In this document: positions 3,331 through 6,778 of the stretch, in pieces
Layout of the letters: each line of letters begins with the position of its first letter
Position numbering within the stretch: position 1 is the stretch's first letter
From: Prescottella agglutinans
GTDB taxonomy: Bacteria > Actinomycetota > Actinomycetes > Mycobacteriales > Mycobacteriaceae
Length of the DNA stretch: 64,000 bases
Direction of reading: 5' to 3'
NCBI RefSeq assembly: GCF_004011865.1
Contig: NZ_RKLP01000013.1
Span: 62,001-126,000 of the forward strand
Notes under the pieces: model-generated
Told to the model about the DNA's origin: nothing
Databases searched by the model: none
Seen by the model: the letters and a program-made list of their open reading frames with translations, nothing else
Made by a program: the position numbers and the translations under genes

Positions 3331-4251
3331 TCAGCGATCTCGAACCGGGGACAGGTCGACGCCGGCGGGTGGGACCAGGCGGCGCAGTGTGCCGTCGAAG
3401 GCAGTGGCGTAAAGCGCAAAGCCGTCGCCGTTCGAACCGATGCGCACCGAGCTCGGCCCGGTCCACCCACTCGACAGGCCCGAAGCGATGGCGCACGCCT
3501 CGCCGCTGCGCGGGTCGACACGGTAGACCGCACCTTCGATATGAGCCGCGACGTACAGCGTTCCGTCCTGCGACATGGTCAGATCATCGGGACCAGGGAG
3601 CAAGCTGGGCAGCGTCGCCACGACCGTCCACTGGTCAGGATTGTCCAGTGGGACACGGAGGATCTGGCCCGTGAACAGATCGTCGGTGTACACCGCTCGG
3701 CGGTCCGGGCTCAGCGCCAGACCCTCCGACCGCCGAACCATCGACCAGTTGGGTGCGACCACGTCGGATTCGCGGAGGTACCGGGACAGCCCTTTCGACG
3801 GGTAGCCCTCCGTTCCCACCCAGGTCGTCAGGAGATCACCGTCGGGAAGACGCAGCAATCCGTTGCCCGCGAACGAAGTCGGCGACGACAGCTGACCGGT
3901 TGCGGTATCCAGGTCCCACAGCTTCCCGTCCTGGCGAGTCAGGAAGGTCAGATTCGAACCGTCGAGCTGCAAGCCACCCGGGGCTGCCAAATCATCGAGC
4001 ACCGTATGAACTTGGCCGGCGGCATCCACCTGGTAGAGCTTCGTATCTCCGGACAGATAGAACCCACCATTGCCGTCAGGTTCCAGGTTCTCGAGCTGCT
4101 CCAAACCCTGTACTACGGTTTCGACCTGCCAGTTGCCGCATTCCGGCAGGGGCGCGGCTTGCGCAGACGTCGCTGCAGTAGTGGTTCCCCCCACGATCGC
4201 AACGGCGACGAACAGCGCTCGAGCCCGATTGCTCAACTTCGTCACGCGCAC
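3331..4251 (-). CDS. secreted SMP-30/gluconolactonase-like beta-propeller protein
   Basis: 306 residues: a basic start, a hydrophobic signal segment (ALFVAVAIVGGTTTAATS) with an AQA-type cleavage site near residue 32, then repeated strands typical of six-bladed propellers (for example GGFYLSGDTKLYQVD, GNGLLRLPDGDLLTTW, DLTMSQDGTLYVAAHIEGAV). SMP-30-like propellers include calcium-dependent lactonases and many non-enzymatic sugar or ligand binders. The catalytic residues could not be assigned by eye. It is monocistronic, with a gap of about 340 bases upstream that it shares with the divergent helR gene. Confidence 0.65.
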   Translation of the reverse strand: MRVTKLSNRARALFVAVAIVGGTTTAATSAQAAPLPECGNWQVETVVQGLEQLENLEPDGNGGFYLSGDTKLYQVDAAGQVHTVLDDLAAPGGLQLDGSNLTFLTRQDGKLWDLDTATGQLSSPTSFAGNGLLRLPDGDLLTTWVGTEGYPSKGLSRYLRESDVVAPNWSMVRRSEGLALSPDRRAVYTDDLFTGQILRVPLDNPDQWTVVATLPSLLPGPDDLTMSQDGTLYVAAHIEGAVYRVDPRSGEACAIASGLSSGWTGPSSVRIGSNGDGFALYATAFDGTLRRLVPPAGVDLSPVRDR

Positions 4252-4594
4252 AACCTAGATGCAGCCGCGACGTTTGTCGCCGGATTCCCGAATCCGGTTG
4301 CTGCTTGTATCGCGGGACACGCCATTCGTTCGGGCGGATTCGGCAGGAGAGCTGACGCGAAACACCCTGTCGGGTCGGCGGTCCGTCAGAGCCGGCAAGC
4401 GCGGTGCGGCGTGGAGGTTTGCCCTGTTCGGGCCGGAGGCGGAAGGAGGAAACCCACTCCTTTCCACCTCCAACATATAGCCGACTGGGGGGCTTGCGGC
4501 AAGGCCCCGGTCATGCCCCAGAATCGCTGACCTGAGTCGAAACCCGTGGCCGTGAGTGCGCCCGAATCGCGGACCCGGGGAAAGTGAGGGGCCA
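4252..4594. other. intergenic region between propeller gene and helR
   Basis: This 343-base divergent gap holds no convincing gene. It contains the RAE at 4489-4507, a weaker inverted repeat AAGGAG-N8-CTCCTT at 4444-4463, and a possible -10 sequence (CATATA, 4474-4479). A five-codon frame (ATG 4513 to TGA 4530, MPQNR) lies between the RAE and helR and has no obvious ribosome site. AGTGAGGGG at 4583-4591 serves helR. Confidence 0.6.
4489..4507 (+). promoter_or_regulatory. rifamycin-associated element (RAE)
   Basis: The 19-base sequence GGGGCTTGCGGCAAGGCCC matches, as I remember it, the RAE found upstream of rifamycin-resistance genes in actinomycetes, which mediates induction by rifamycins. 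It has internal dyad symmetry (CTTG-CGG-CAAG). It lies 87 bases before the helR start codon and on the same strand. Confidence 0.85.
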
Positions 4595-6778
4595 ATGTCA
4601 GCACGGGAATACGAGGACGAACTGCAGGCGGAACAGGAGTACGTGACCGGGCTCTACGAGCGGCTCGACGCCGAGCGGGCGCGGGTGAAGTCGCGGTACG
4701 GCGCCGCGCTGCGCGATCACGGCGGGACGCTCGTGGATCGCGAGGTGGAGGTCCGCACGCTGGCGCGAGAGATGCAGCGGCTGGACGTGGCGGACAACGG
4801 GCTGTGCTTCGGCCGCCTGGACGCGGTCGCGGGGGAGCGGTCGTACATCGGCCGGATCGGCATCTTCGACGAGGAGCGCGACTTCGAACCTCTGCTCCTC
4901 GACTGGCGGGCGCCGGCCGCGCGCGCGTTCTACGTGGCGACCGCCGCCAACCCGGAGGGAATGAGCCGACGGCGTCAGTTCCACAGCCGCGGGCGTCGCG
5001 TGGTCGAGTTCACCGACGAGGTCCTGGGCCGCCCCGACGGCTCCGGCCCGGACCGCAGCGGTGATTCGGCTCTGCTCGCCGCCGTCAACGCACCGCGCGG
5101 TGACGGGATGAGCGACATCGTGGCGACCATCCAGGCGGAGCAGGACGAGATCATCCGGCTCGACCACCCGGGTGTGCTGGTGATCGAGGGTGGTCCCGGC
5201 ACCGGGAAGACCGTCGTCGCCCTGCACCGCGTCGCGTATCTGCTCTACACGCAGCGGGAGCAGATGGAACGTCACGGGGTGCTCGTGGTCGGGCCCAATG
5301 CGGCGTTCCTGCGCCACATCGATCGTGTTCTCCCTTCGCTCGGCGAGACGAACGTCGTGTTCACGACCACCGGCGACCTGATGCCGGGCGTGCACGTCAC
5401 CGGCGAGGACACCCCGGAGGCGGCGCGGCTGAAGGGCTCGCTGCAGATCCTGGACGTGCTTGCCGCGGCCATCGCCGATCGGCAGCGGTTGCCCGAGGAG
5501 CCGCTGCCGATCGAACTCTCGGGGGTCGCGCTGCAGATCGACGCCGCCACGGCGGAGTGGGCGCGCGAGGAGGCGCGTGCCGGCGGGCGGCCGCACAACG
5601 AGGCGCGGGCGGTGTTCCGGGAGATCGTCACGTACGTGCTCACCGAGCGCGCGATCGGCCGAATCGGCAAGGGTTGGCTGTCCCGCTCCGACCGGAAGGC
5701 GTGGGAGCAGATGCGCACCGAGTTGCTCGAGGAGCTTGCCCAGGACGCGGGCTTCGCCGTCGCGCTCGACGCACTGTGGCCGATCCTGGAGCCGGATTCA
5801 CTGCTTGCAGAGCTCTATTCGTCTCCGGGGCGGCTGAGTGCGGCGGGCGCAGATCCGGTACTGTGGCGCGCCGACGGTGGCGCCTGGACGGTGTCGGACG
5901 TGCCGCTGCTCGAAGAACTGGTCGAACTGCTGGGCCGCGATCAGCGGGTCGACCGGGCCGCCGAGCGGGAGCGGAAGGCGCGCACCGCATACGCCGAGAG
6001 CGTGCTGAGCGGCCTGGTCAGCCGCGCAGATCACATGGAGGACGACGAACTTCGGCTGTTCGCGACCGACGTGCTGGATGCCGAGGTGCTGGCCGAGCGG
6101 TTCGACGAGGTCGACACCCGCGACCTCGCCGAACGCGCTGCCGCGGACCGGGACTGGACGTACCGCCACATCGTGGTCGACGAAGCCCAGGAACTGTCCG
6201 AGATGGACTGGCGGGTGTTGATGCGGCGTTGCCCGAGCAAGTCCTTCACCATCGTCGGCGATCTGGCGCAGCGGCGGTCGTCGGCGGGCGCGACGTCGTG
6301 GGACGCGATGCTCGAGCCGTACGTGCCCGGCCGCTGGGTCTACCGGTCGCTGTCGGTGAACTACCGCACGCCGGCGGAGATCATGTCCGTCGCCGCCGCG
6401 CTGCTCGCCGAGTTCGCCCCCGGAGTCCGGCCGCCGGAGTCGGTCCGCGCGTGCGGCGTCAGGCCGTGGTCCCGACACGTCTCGGAGGACGAACTGGGAA
6501 CTGCCATCGACGAATTCGGCCGCGACGAGGCCGGCCGGGACGGCACCAGCGTGGTCATCGGGCCACCCGGTGTCCCCGGCACGGTTCCGGCGTCCGAGAC
6601 GAAGGGCCTGGAGTTCGATGCCGTCCTGGTGGTCGATCCGGCACGCATCCTCGCCGACGGCCCGCGCGGCGCGGCCGAACTCTATGTCGCCCTCACCCGC
6701 GCCACCCAGCGCCTCGGTGTCCTGCATCAGGGGCCGCTGCCGCCGGCCCTGACCGGTCTCGCCGACGTGTCGGCCTGA
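4595..6778 (+). CDS. helR: HelR-type RNA polymerase-recycling helicase-like ATPase
   Basis: 727 residues, superfamily 1 (UvrD/Rep-like) architecture. The N-terminal coiled coil is rich in Glu and Arg (first ~60 residues). Walker A GGPGTGKTVVALHR is at about 200, Walker B region VVDEAQELSEMDW at about 527, SVNYRTPAEI at about 588, and the terminal motif AELYVALTRATQRLGV at about 694. HelD/HelR proteins bind stalled or drug-bound RNA polymerase and release it from DNA; HelR protects the enzyme from rifamycins by displacing the drug. The RAE upstream favours HelR over a housekeeping HelD. The ATG at 4595 is preferred over an in-frame start at 4556 because of the AGTGAGGGG site just before it. 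Confidence 0.88.
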   Translation: MSAREYEDELQAEQEYVTGLYERLDAERARVKSRYGAALRDHGGTLVDREVEVRTLAREMQRLDVADNGLCFGRLDAVAGERSYIGRIGIFDEERDFEPLLLDWRAPAARAFYVATAANPEGMSRRRQFHSRGRRVVEFTDEVLGRPDGSGPDRSGDSALLAAVNAPRGDGMSDIVATIQAEQDEIIRLDHPGVLVIEGGPGTGKTVVALHRVAYLLYTQREQMERHGVLVVGPNAAFLRHIDRVLPSLGETNVVFTTTGDLMPGVHVTGEDTPEAARLKGSLQILDVLAAAIADRQRLPEEPLPIELSGVALQIDAATAEWAREEARAGGRPHNEARAVFREIVTYVLTERAIGRIGKGWLSRSDRKAWEQMRTELLEELAQDAGFAVALDALWPILEPDSLLAELYSSPGRLSAAGADPVLWRADGGAWTVSDVPLLEELVELLGRDQRVDRAAERERKARTAYAESVLSGLVSRADHMEDDELRLFATDVLDAEVLAERFDEVDTRDLAERAAADRDWTYRHIVVDEAQELSEMDWRVLMRRCPSKSFTIVGDLAQRRSSAGATSWDAMLEPYVPGRWVYRSLSVNYRTPAEIMSVAAALLAEFAPGVRPPESVRACGVRPWSRHVSEDELGTAIDEFGRDEAGRDGTSVVIGPPGVPGTVPASETKGLEFDAVLVVDPARILADGPRGAAELYVALTRATQRLGVLHQGPLPPALTGLADVSA

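Follow-up and report, generated by a model that had tools for sequence, protein, structure and literature searches.

Does a perfect copy of the rifamycin-associated element (RAE) in front of a helicase-like gene mark an inducible resistance unit, and what else does such an element need around it? This question is raised by a stretch of Prescottella agglutinans DNA (contig NZ_RKLP01000013.1, positions 62,001 to 126,000), the full 64 kb of which we refer to as the window. The original prediction had read a 19-mer located 87 bases before a helicase-like gene as an RAE and the pair as a rifamycin-inducible resistance unit. Our computational follow-up identifies the gene as helR and finds the RAE flanked on both sides by conserved −10 elements. 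Taken as a whole, the explanation that we consider probable is that the locus is a HelR-type rifamycin-resistance unit in a two-gene regulon with the rifampin monooxygenase gene rox, and that the RAE is the center of a two-way promoter.

The window gene is helR

The RAE core, GGGGCTTGCGGCAAGGCCC, and the gene that it precedes are placed as follows.

4489..4507, plus strand: RAE core, 19 bp, near-palindrome centered on 4498; exact, once in the window
4595..6778, plus strand: helR, 727 amino acids (aa), class II HelD/HelR RNA polymerase recycling ATPase; from profiles, structure match, and tree

The predicted distance holds: the start codon of helR is the ATG at 4595 (the mechanical open reading frame began at the GTG at 4556), leaving 87 bp between the exact 19-mer and the gene. 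Given the base composition, exact copies are expected by chance only ≈9e-6 times per 64 kb and 8e-4 times per 5.43 Mb, and shuffles of the window contain a mean of 0.07 matches even when up to 3 mismatches are allowed. Because its halves are near-complementary, GGGGCTTGCGGCAAGGCCC matches its own minus strand with 3 mismatches; the palindrome is imperfect, with a G/G at pair −6/+6.

The window protein passes the NCBIfam models NF041258 (motor_HelR_2; 1347.2 bits, cut-off 1100) and NF041465 (HelD_MYCSM; 1364 bits, cut-off 1051) and falls below the other HelR model, NF041254 (465 bits, cut-off 750). Its best match among solved structures is a close relative, Mycobacterium smegmatis HelD (6yxu, residues 1-725), and the alignment with 6yxu shows that the ATPase motifs GGPGTGKT and VVDEAQ are kept. 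The acidic tip of the PCh loop reads MEDDEL compared with MDDEDH in M. smegmatis HelD, a feature that cannot separate HelR from HelD, as a paralogue in the same genome (L004) has DLEDDLD. This second HelD-type gene is 48% identical to the window HelR, fails both profile cut-offs, and has no RAE (L272).

The original prediction had taken the protein for HelR rather than a housekeeping HelD, and phylogeny agrees. In a tree of 62 rows, all trimmed to 480 aa because many loci are short, the window protein is one of 22 rows that make up a HelR clade supported at 100/100. Outside this clade lie 30 HelD-type rows, including the HelD copy of the same genome, together with 10 rows from the other HelR subfamily; the HelD rows are not gathered into a single group, and several are long branches. 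No RAE (up to 2 mismatches) lies within 400 bp upstream of any of the 30 HelD-type loci. The window HelR is 89% identical to that of L075 (Prescottella defluvii) and 78% identical to that of L056, a second record so named.

The helR unit does not stand alone, because rox, elsewhere in the genome, has an RAE of its own. The only other RAE within one mismatch, at C18:199041-199059, lies outside the window on another contig, 47 bp before the ATG of rox, whose product passes NF033145 (908.6 bits, cut-off 800) and matches PDB entries 5kow and 5vqb. In this locus (L002; G000:C18:197541-200559), the gene spans 23-1453 on the minus strand and the RAE 1501-1519, with both halves of the module described below. 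Thus, helR and rox form a two-gene RAE regulon in this genome. At a limit of 3 mismatches, a reversed control pattern gave 11 and 6 genomic matches compared with 2 and 2 for the real RAE, so only near-exact matches are meaningful. Single Arr- and Rgt-like queries, run without a positive control, found no match in the genome, and an Rph-fragment query returned two proteins at just 40% and 34% identity (L332, G000:C1:804521-805201; L333, G000:C20:98756-99475); both RAE sites are on other contigs.

Across the genus, 11 of 14 genomes carry a total of 17 RAE sites with at most one mismatch, and every one of the 17 sites examined stands before helR (11 sites, including one with the other HelR subfamily) or before rox (6 sites); a looser pattern adds one further site in G002, outside the 17 examined. 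The three genomes lacking the RAE (G011-G013) gave no HelR match with a HelD query either. In the P. equi locus (L096), the RAE has no mismatch and lies 109 bp upstream. One genome of the genus, G008, carries the other HelR subfamily behind an RAE (L013) and has no match to the usual HelR type, which suggests replacement or transfer.

Beyond the genus, we considered the best 80 of 449 matches to the window HelR as named HelR loci. An RAE is present at 67 of these 80, within 350 bp at 53 and farther upstream at 14, where nearly complete rgt (10 loci), rgt remnants (3), or rox (1) lie between the RAE and helR. The same 19-bp core stands upstream of rox, rgt, arr, rph, and two HelR subfamilies. 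A site with at most one mismatch occurs in 286 of 401 genomes of the family and 142 of 296 of the class, where the reversed control also matches a number of genomes; in genus g50, which is probably Streptomyces, 51 of 61 genomes have a zero-mismatch site, compared with 1 of 61 for the control. The reading of the locus as a resistance unit is supported by the HelR clade, by the core that helR shares with rox, rgt, arr, and rph, and by the absence of the RAE from the 30 HelD-type loci.

Several individual loci deserve mention. In L022, L033, and L037, mere remnants of rgt separate the RAE from helR, as if an rgt-helR operon had decayed and left its RAE to helR. In L073 (Mycobacterium deserti; RAE at 1777), rgt and helR share a single open frame of 1131 residues behind one RAE and may encode a glycosyltransferase-HelR fusion protein. 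Long open frames at other mycobacterial loci had pointed to further Rgt-HelR fusions, but 1 of 11 such loci is fused, and it is probably from the same genome as L073; in G649 (L341), rgt and helR adjoin in different frames. In an Amycolatopsis bin (L101), one RAE is followed by two resistance genes, rox and then helR. The HelR loci L081, L083, and L094 (Kibdelosporangium and Rhodococcus rhodnii) are nearly identical upstream and lack an RAE in the DNA examined, and the HelR proteins of L081 and L083 are almost identical; recent transfer with another promoter is likely.

A conserved module around the RAE

To compare RAE flanks, 232 sites were oriented by the gene that follows: HelR at 173 (three sets), rox at 31, rgt at 17 (among them operons and rgt remnants ahead of helR), arr at 6, and rph at 5. 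Removal of 53 near-copies or sites with gapped flanks left 179 nonredundant sites with flanks less than 75% identical. The sites analyzed are part of those found in the scans of the family, the class, and genus g50, and they include 25 of 30 mycobacterial loci, with g29 taken for Mycobacterium on a 97% match to M. smegmatis HelD. Orientation and gene class were assigned partly by hand from BLAST, and by eye for arr, rph, and initially unclassified sites. An NCBIfam spot check covered one Arr, one ABC ATPase, and one fragment each of Rph, Rgt, and Rox; the three fragments have rifamycin families as their best matches, yet score below the full-length cut-offs.

This census, rather than published consensus letters, is the basis on which we call the 19-mer an RAE. 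The original identification of the 19-mer is borne out, with one correction: it is only the central part of a wider conserved promoter module. Positions near-invariant to the left of the RAE center are A−26 (97%), T−22 (98%), A−21 (96%), and C−33 (96%), and those to the right are C+21 (96%), A+22 (98%), A+24 (97%), and T+26 (97%). C−17 (89%), C−34 (88%), and G+20 (87%) are fairly conserved, and most other flank positions vary. The right-hand positions spell a sense −10, CANAAT, at +21 to +26, with the TTGCGG of the RAE 19 nt upstream. The left-hand positions spell, on the minus strand, TANNNT at −21 to −26, an exact mirror that lies 19 nt from the other TTGC. An earlier candidate for the antisense −10, TATATG with a 17-nt spacer, was dropped, as the wider alignment shows TANNNT and an invariant 19-nt spacer.

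Both −10 elements are conserved. The sense pair A+22/T+26 occurs in 175 of 179 sites, and A−26, T−22, and A−21 occur together in 171 of 179 and in each of the eight site sets; at least 4 of the 8 exceptions look like one-base register shifts. C−33, a G on the minus strand, coincides with the predicted antisense start, seven bases past the −10. In a held-out set from g50, found with the bare RAE pattern at one site per genome and not thinned for relatedness, the antisense −10 is present in all 30 sites and both module halves in 29; all 30 precede rox (14), helR (8), rgt (7), or rph (1). In the window, the module and its surroundings are placed as follows.

4494..4499, plus strand: putative sense −35 of helR, TTGCGG, within the RAE; from sequence and conservation
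4519..4524, plus strand: putative sense −10, CAGAAT, 21-26 bp right of the RAE center; from conservation of A+22/T+26
4529..4531, plus strand: predicted start of the sense helR transcript, 5-7 nt past the −10
4497..4502, minus strand: putative antisense −35, TTGCCG, in the other RAE half; from sequence and conservation
4472..4477, minus strand: putative antisense −10, TATGTT (fits TANNNT), mirroring the sense −10 about the RAE center; from conservation of A−26/T−22/A−21
4441..4465, minus strand: hairpin from the predicted antisense start (4465, 33 bp left of the RAE center); from folding and shuffles
3331..4251, minus strand: divergent neighbor, SMP-30/gluconolactonase-like protein; context only

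Antisense read-through, if any, would enter the leader of the SMP-30/gluconolactonase-like gene.

Among 140 scanned RAE-like sites, 17 initially lacked a classified gene, and these comprise 8 with the full module, 6 with neither element in either orientation, and 3 partial sites (L109, L111, and L203). Judged by eye, the sense side of the full-module sites holds rox at L137, arr at L160, rgt-like genes at L216 and L241, and a broken rox-like frame at L266. Genes for ABC transporter ATPases follow at L255:1498 (plus strand), L257:1498 (minus strand), and L259:1492 (minus strand), which come from three genomes, each of a different genus within a single family (f15). The L255 protein scores above the cut-off of the drrA model (TIGR01188; 325.8 bits, cut-off 312.45), and L257 and L259 were read by eye. 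The three ATPases are candidate rifamycin-response exporters. The six sites with neither element (L108, L252, L264, L268, L270, and L271) have no recognizable rifamycin gene, and L252 resembles, by eye, a decayed module. The full module thus looks more specific than the 19-mer. At the partial site L203:1501 (minus strand), the antisense half alone lies upstream of what appears by eye to be an alpha/beta hydrolase-like frame.

The antisense half is often followed by a hairpin. Stems were scored for each start position on the minus strand at 178 of the 179 sites (one has no upstream sequence), and a hairpin was called terminator-like when a strong stem had 5 or more T among the 9 bases that follow it. 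The mean stem score peaks at −33, where a strong stem is found in 38% of the 178 sites (68 sites) compared with 7% of shuffles. Terminator-like antisense hairpins that start at −33 occur in 26 of 178 sites compared with 5 of 1780 shuffles; starts from −41 to −61 yield at most 1 of 178 each, and 40 sense starts yield 1 in total. The stem pairs covary: among the 68 stems, pair 3 is A-T in 40, C-G in 14, and G-C in 4. The held-out g50 sites have a stem at −33 in 26 of 30 and a terminator in 20 of 30, with terminators in 0 of 30 at control starts (six other antisense and six sense). The mean folding energy of the antisense leader gave weak signals, and this register test is more informative. The terminator is a property of part of the RAE sites, not of the window copy. 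The RAE of rox in this genome has a strong antisense hairpin (z of −3.8, for a stretch opening six bases ahead of the predicted start, with four of those bases used in the fold) without a clear T-run.

Two further observations concern this region. To the left of the RAE in the g50 sites (L302-L331), the arms of the antisense hairpin are often GGCAAGGAG/CTCCTTGCC, repeating the GCAAG of the RAE half-site, which may be chance or a second binding site. At six loci of genus g4 (L109-L113 and L115), the antisense side holds a frame of 395-422 aa that points away from helR and begins 79-84 bp from the RAE; the two frames that were read are methyltransferase-like. Together with the lack of a strong antisense stem in this genus, this looks as if the antisense promoter drives a gene there, a link between divergent gene and missing terminator that was seen in g4 only.

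A probable two-way promoter and its rivals

The arrangement of these elements points to a probable role for the RAE as the core of a two-way promoter that would also make a futile antisense stub RNA. The palindrome TTGCNGCAA would give a −35 to each direction, with the −10s mirrored 21-26 bp to either side; since this −35 is shared, one RNA polymerase would be bound at a time. We infer that sigma-A RNA polymerase uses both −10s, that transcripts begin at the predicted starts, and that the two directions exclude each other. At part of the sites, the antisense side would yield an RNA of just ≈30 nt, because the terminator-like hairpin begins at its first base. The antisense side appears to have the better −10, and the sense −10, which keeps a conserved C as its first base, is probably weak. 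Where the antisense RNA would stop at once, the antisense half seems to be retained for what it does to the sense half, rather than for the RNA that it makes.

Rifamycin presumably induces helR in this organism. When the drug is present, transcription from the RAE promoter would rise and HelR would be made; HelR would then enter RNA polymerase with its PCh loop toward the active site, displace the drug, and free the stalled enzyme. How the promoter might sense the drug is a separate matter. One suggestion, which we put forward tentatively and regard as doubtful, is that the promoter pair itself senses rifamycin and needs no dedicated transcription factor. Polymerase would normally prefer the antisense start, its RNA would be terminated at once, and the sense promoter would be kept shut; drug-bound polymerase would tip this balance, so that the sense promoter of helR, rox, rgt, arr, or rph opens. 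A drug-stalled polymerase on the antisense side should, however, block the sense side unless it is quickly removed, which would call for an unstable complex, removal by HelR, or a further factor at the palindrome.

Several results weigh against a two-way promoter, or against so close a tie between helR and the RAE. The 19-nt spacer between TTGCGG and the −10 on each side is long for a promoter of the sigma-70 type, and the flanks mirror each other weakly, with a correlation that is highest at offset 0 (1.02) yet still 0.80 at +5/+6. The start of the hairpin is not sharp, as positions −30 to −38 yield 8 to 22 terminator-like hairpins, in part because the same stems are counted. Outside g50, terminators are in the minority (26 of 178), the window hairpin at 4441-4465 lacks a T-run and folds no better than shuffles (z of 0.21), and none of the 12 sites of genus g4 has a strong antisense stem. 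A sense promoter P1 has been reported in M. smegmatis (PMC10719064) and may serve elsewhere. Furthermore, 13 of the best 80 named HelR loci have no RAE in the DNA examined, and the same is true of 4 of 30 mycobacterial loci and, within ≈1.7 kb, of 5 of 11 further mycobacterial loci, with one more at 3 mismatches.

The strongest competitor, to which we give somewhat less than an even chance, is that the RAE is an ordinary operator for a rifamycin-responsive dimeric transcription factor and that the antisense −10 and hairpin are incidental or part of its site. The near-palindromic form with invariant half-sites TTGC/GCAA would suit such a factor, a FEMS review (PMC10719064) and a 2026 NAR paper (PMC12802891) both suggest that an unknown factor exists, and deletion of half the RAE abolishes induction, though this also removes the −35 of P2 (PMC10719064). 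What an operator alone leaves unexplained is the mirror TANNNT in 171 of 179 sites and the terminator-like hairpins that appear near the predicted start on the antisense strand only.

Alternatively, the upstream element, read on the sense strand as CANNNTA, could be the −10 of the sense promoter P1, placing the RAE between two tandem sense promoters. We find this unlikely, even though [C/T]ANNNT is also possible as a sense −10 and two sense promoters are reported in M. smegmatis (PMC10719064). According to the same review, P1 starts ≈20 bp upstream of the RAE. At L172, from a near relative of M. smegmatis (97% identity over 204 aa), G-TACCCT fits the P1 start and CACCATA lies downstream of it, a placement that is our own reading of the sequence and not of a published figure. 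The first base of the supposed −10 would be C in 83% of sites and T in 13%, and the near-invariant A−21 and the antisense hairpin would have no explanation.

That the RAE acts as an RNA hairpin in a leader from an upstream promoter is very improbable, and we reject it: the 19-mer could fold and PMC10719064 places the RAE in the 5′ untranslated region of P1, but the arms are invariant without covariation, and −6 (mostly G) faces an A or G at +6 and is unpaired. A housekeeping HelD with a chance RAE is scarcely credible and is also rejected, for although HelD and HelR are related and the window protein exceeds the NF041465 cut-off too, its HelR clade has support of 100/100, paralogue L004 fails both cut-offs and has no RAE, and 17 of 17 genus RAE sites examined precede helR or rox.

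Relation to known rifamycin responses

The window helR resembles several known systems. Rifampicin is displaced by class II HelD, whose PCh loop reaches in close to the active site; D485 clashes with the drug (PMC11464796). The HelR proteins of Mycobacterium abscessus and Streptomyces venezuelae (PMC10719064 and PMC8655204) are, like that of the window, class II HelD proteins with an RAE shortly upstream, in genomes that also carry other RAE- or rifampicin-controlled genes such as rox and arr; unlike these, the window HelR is from another species, and its induction and its part in resistance are predicted. M. abscessus helD is upregulated 25-fold with rifampicin, and in M. smegmatis, the RAE overlaps the −35 of P2 (PMC10719064), in line with the sense −10 and the TTGCGG in the RAE observed here.

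The pairing of helR with the RAE is already known in this organism group. One of the potential helR variants named by Larsen 2021 is REQ_15310 of Rhodococcus equi, and that grouping is tied to upstream RAEs (PMC8655204). REQ_15310 and rhod_09075 (Rhodococcus sp. 008) share family, organism group, and RAE link with the window helR; the accessible description covers the RAE alone and no wider module (PMC8655204). In the open-access literature searched, which does not include the main RAE/HelR papers, we met neither an antisense promoter nor a flanking module described for the RAE, and the two-way module may be partly known already.

The closest mechanistic parallel is the dual-promoter rifampicin alarm of Bacillus subtilis (helD and pps; PMC12802891), in which a sense and an antisense promoter, as predicted for the RAE module, lie upstream of a HelD gene. 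The antisense promoter is dominant there, and it is expected to be the stronger one at the RAE module as well. In B. subtilis, arrested polymerase on the convergent antisense promoter stops interfering, and the converging promoters need room, since a shortening by 17 bp abolished induction (PMC12802891). The promoters of the RAE module, in contrast, would be divergent and share one −35, with a predicted antisense terminator-like hairpin at part of the sites. We considered a plain transfer of the convergent mechanism and rejected it, as the geometry differs and steric overlap abolished induction in B. subtilis (PMC12802891). A second parallel is offered by the tandem rpoBC promoters of M. smegmatis, where use of the first promoter gives way to use of the second under rifampicin (Zhu 2018, via PMC10719064). 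This too is a rifampicin response by promoter interference in a mycobacterium, but the promoters are tandem rather than divergent, and the effect is 2-fold compared with 25-fold for M. abscessus helD.

How rifamycins are sensed through the RAE in actinobacteria is an open question in print, its mechanism being described as remaining to be elucidated (PMC12802891), and the wider module makes this question simply testable. The full module may also help to find new rifamycin-response genes. If true, the two-way module would be a new form of promoter-based rifamycin sensing.

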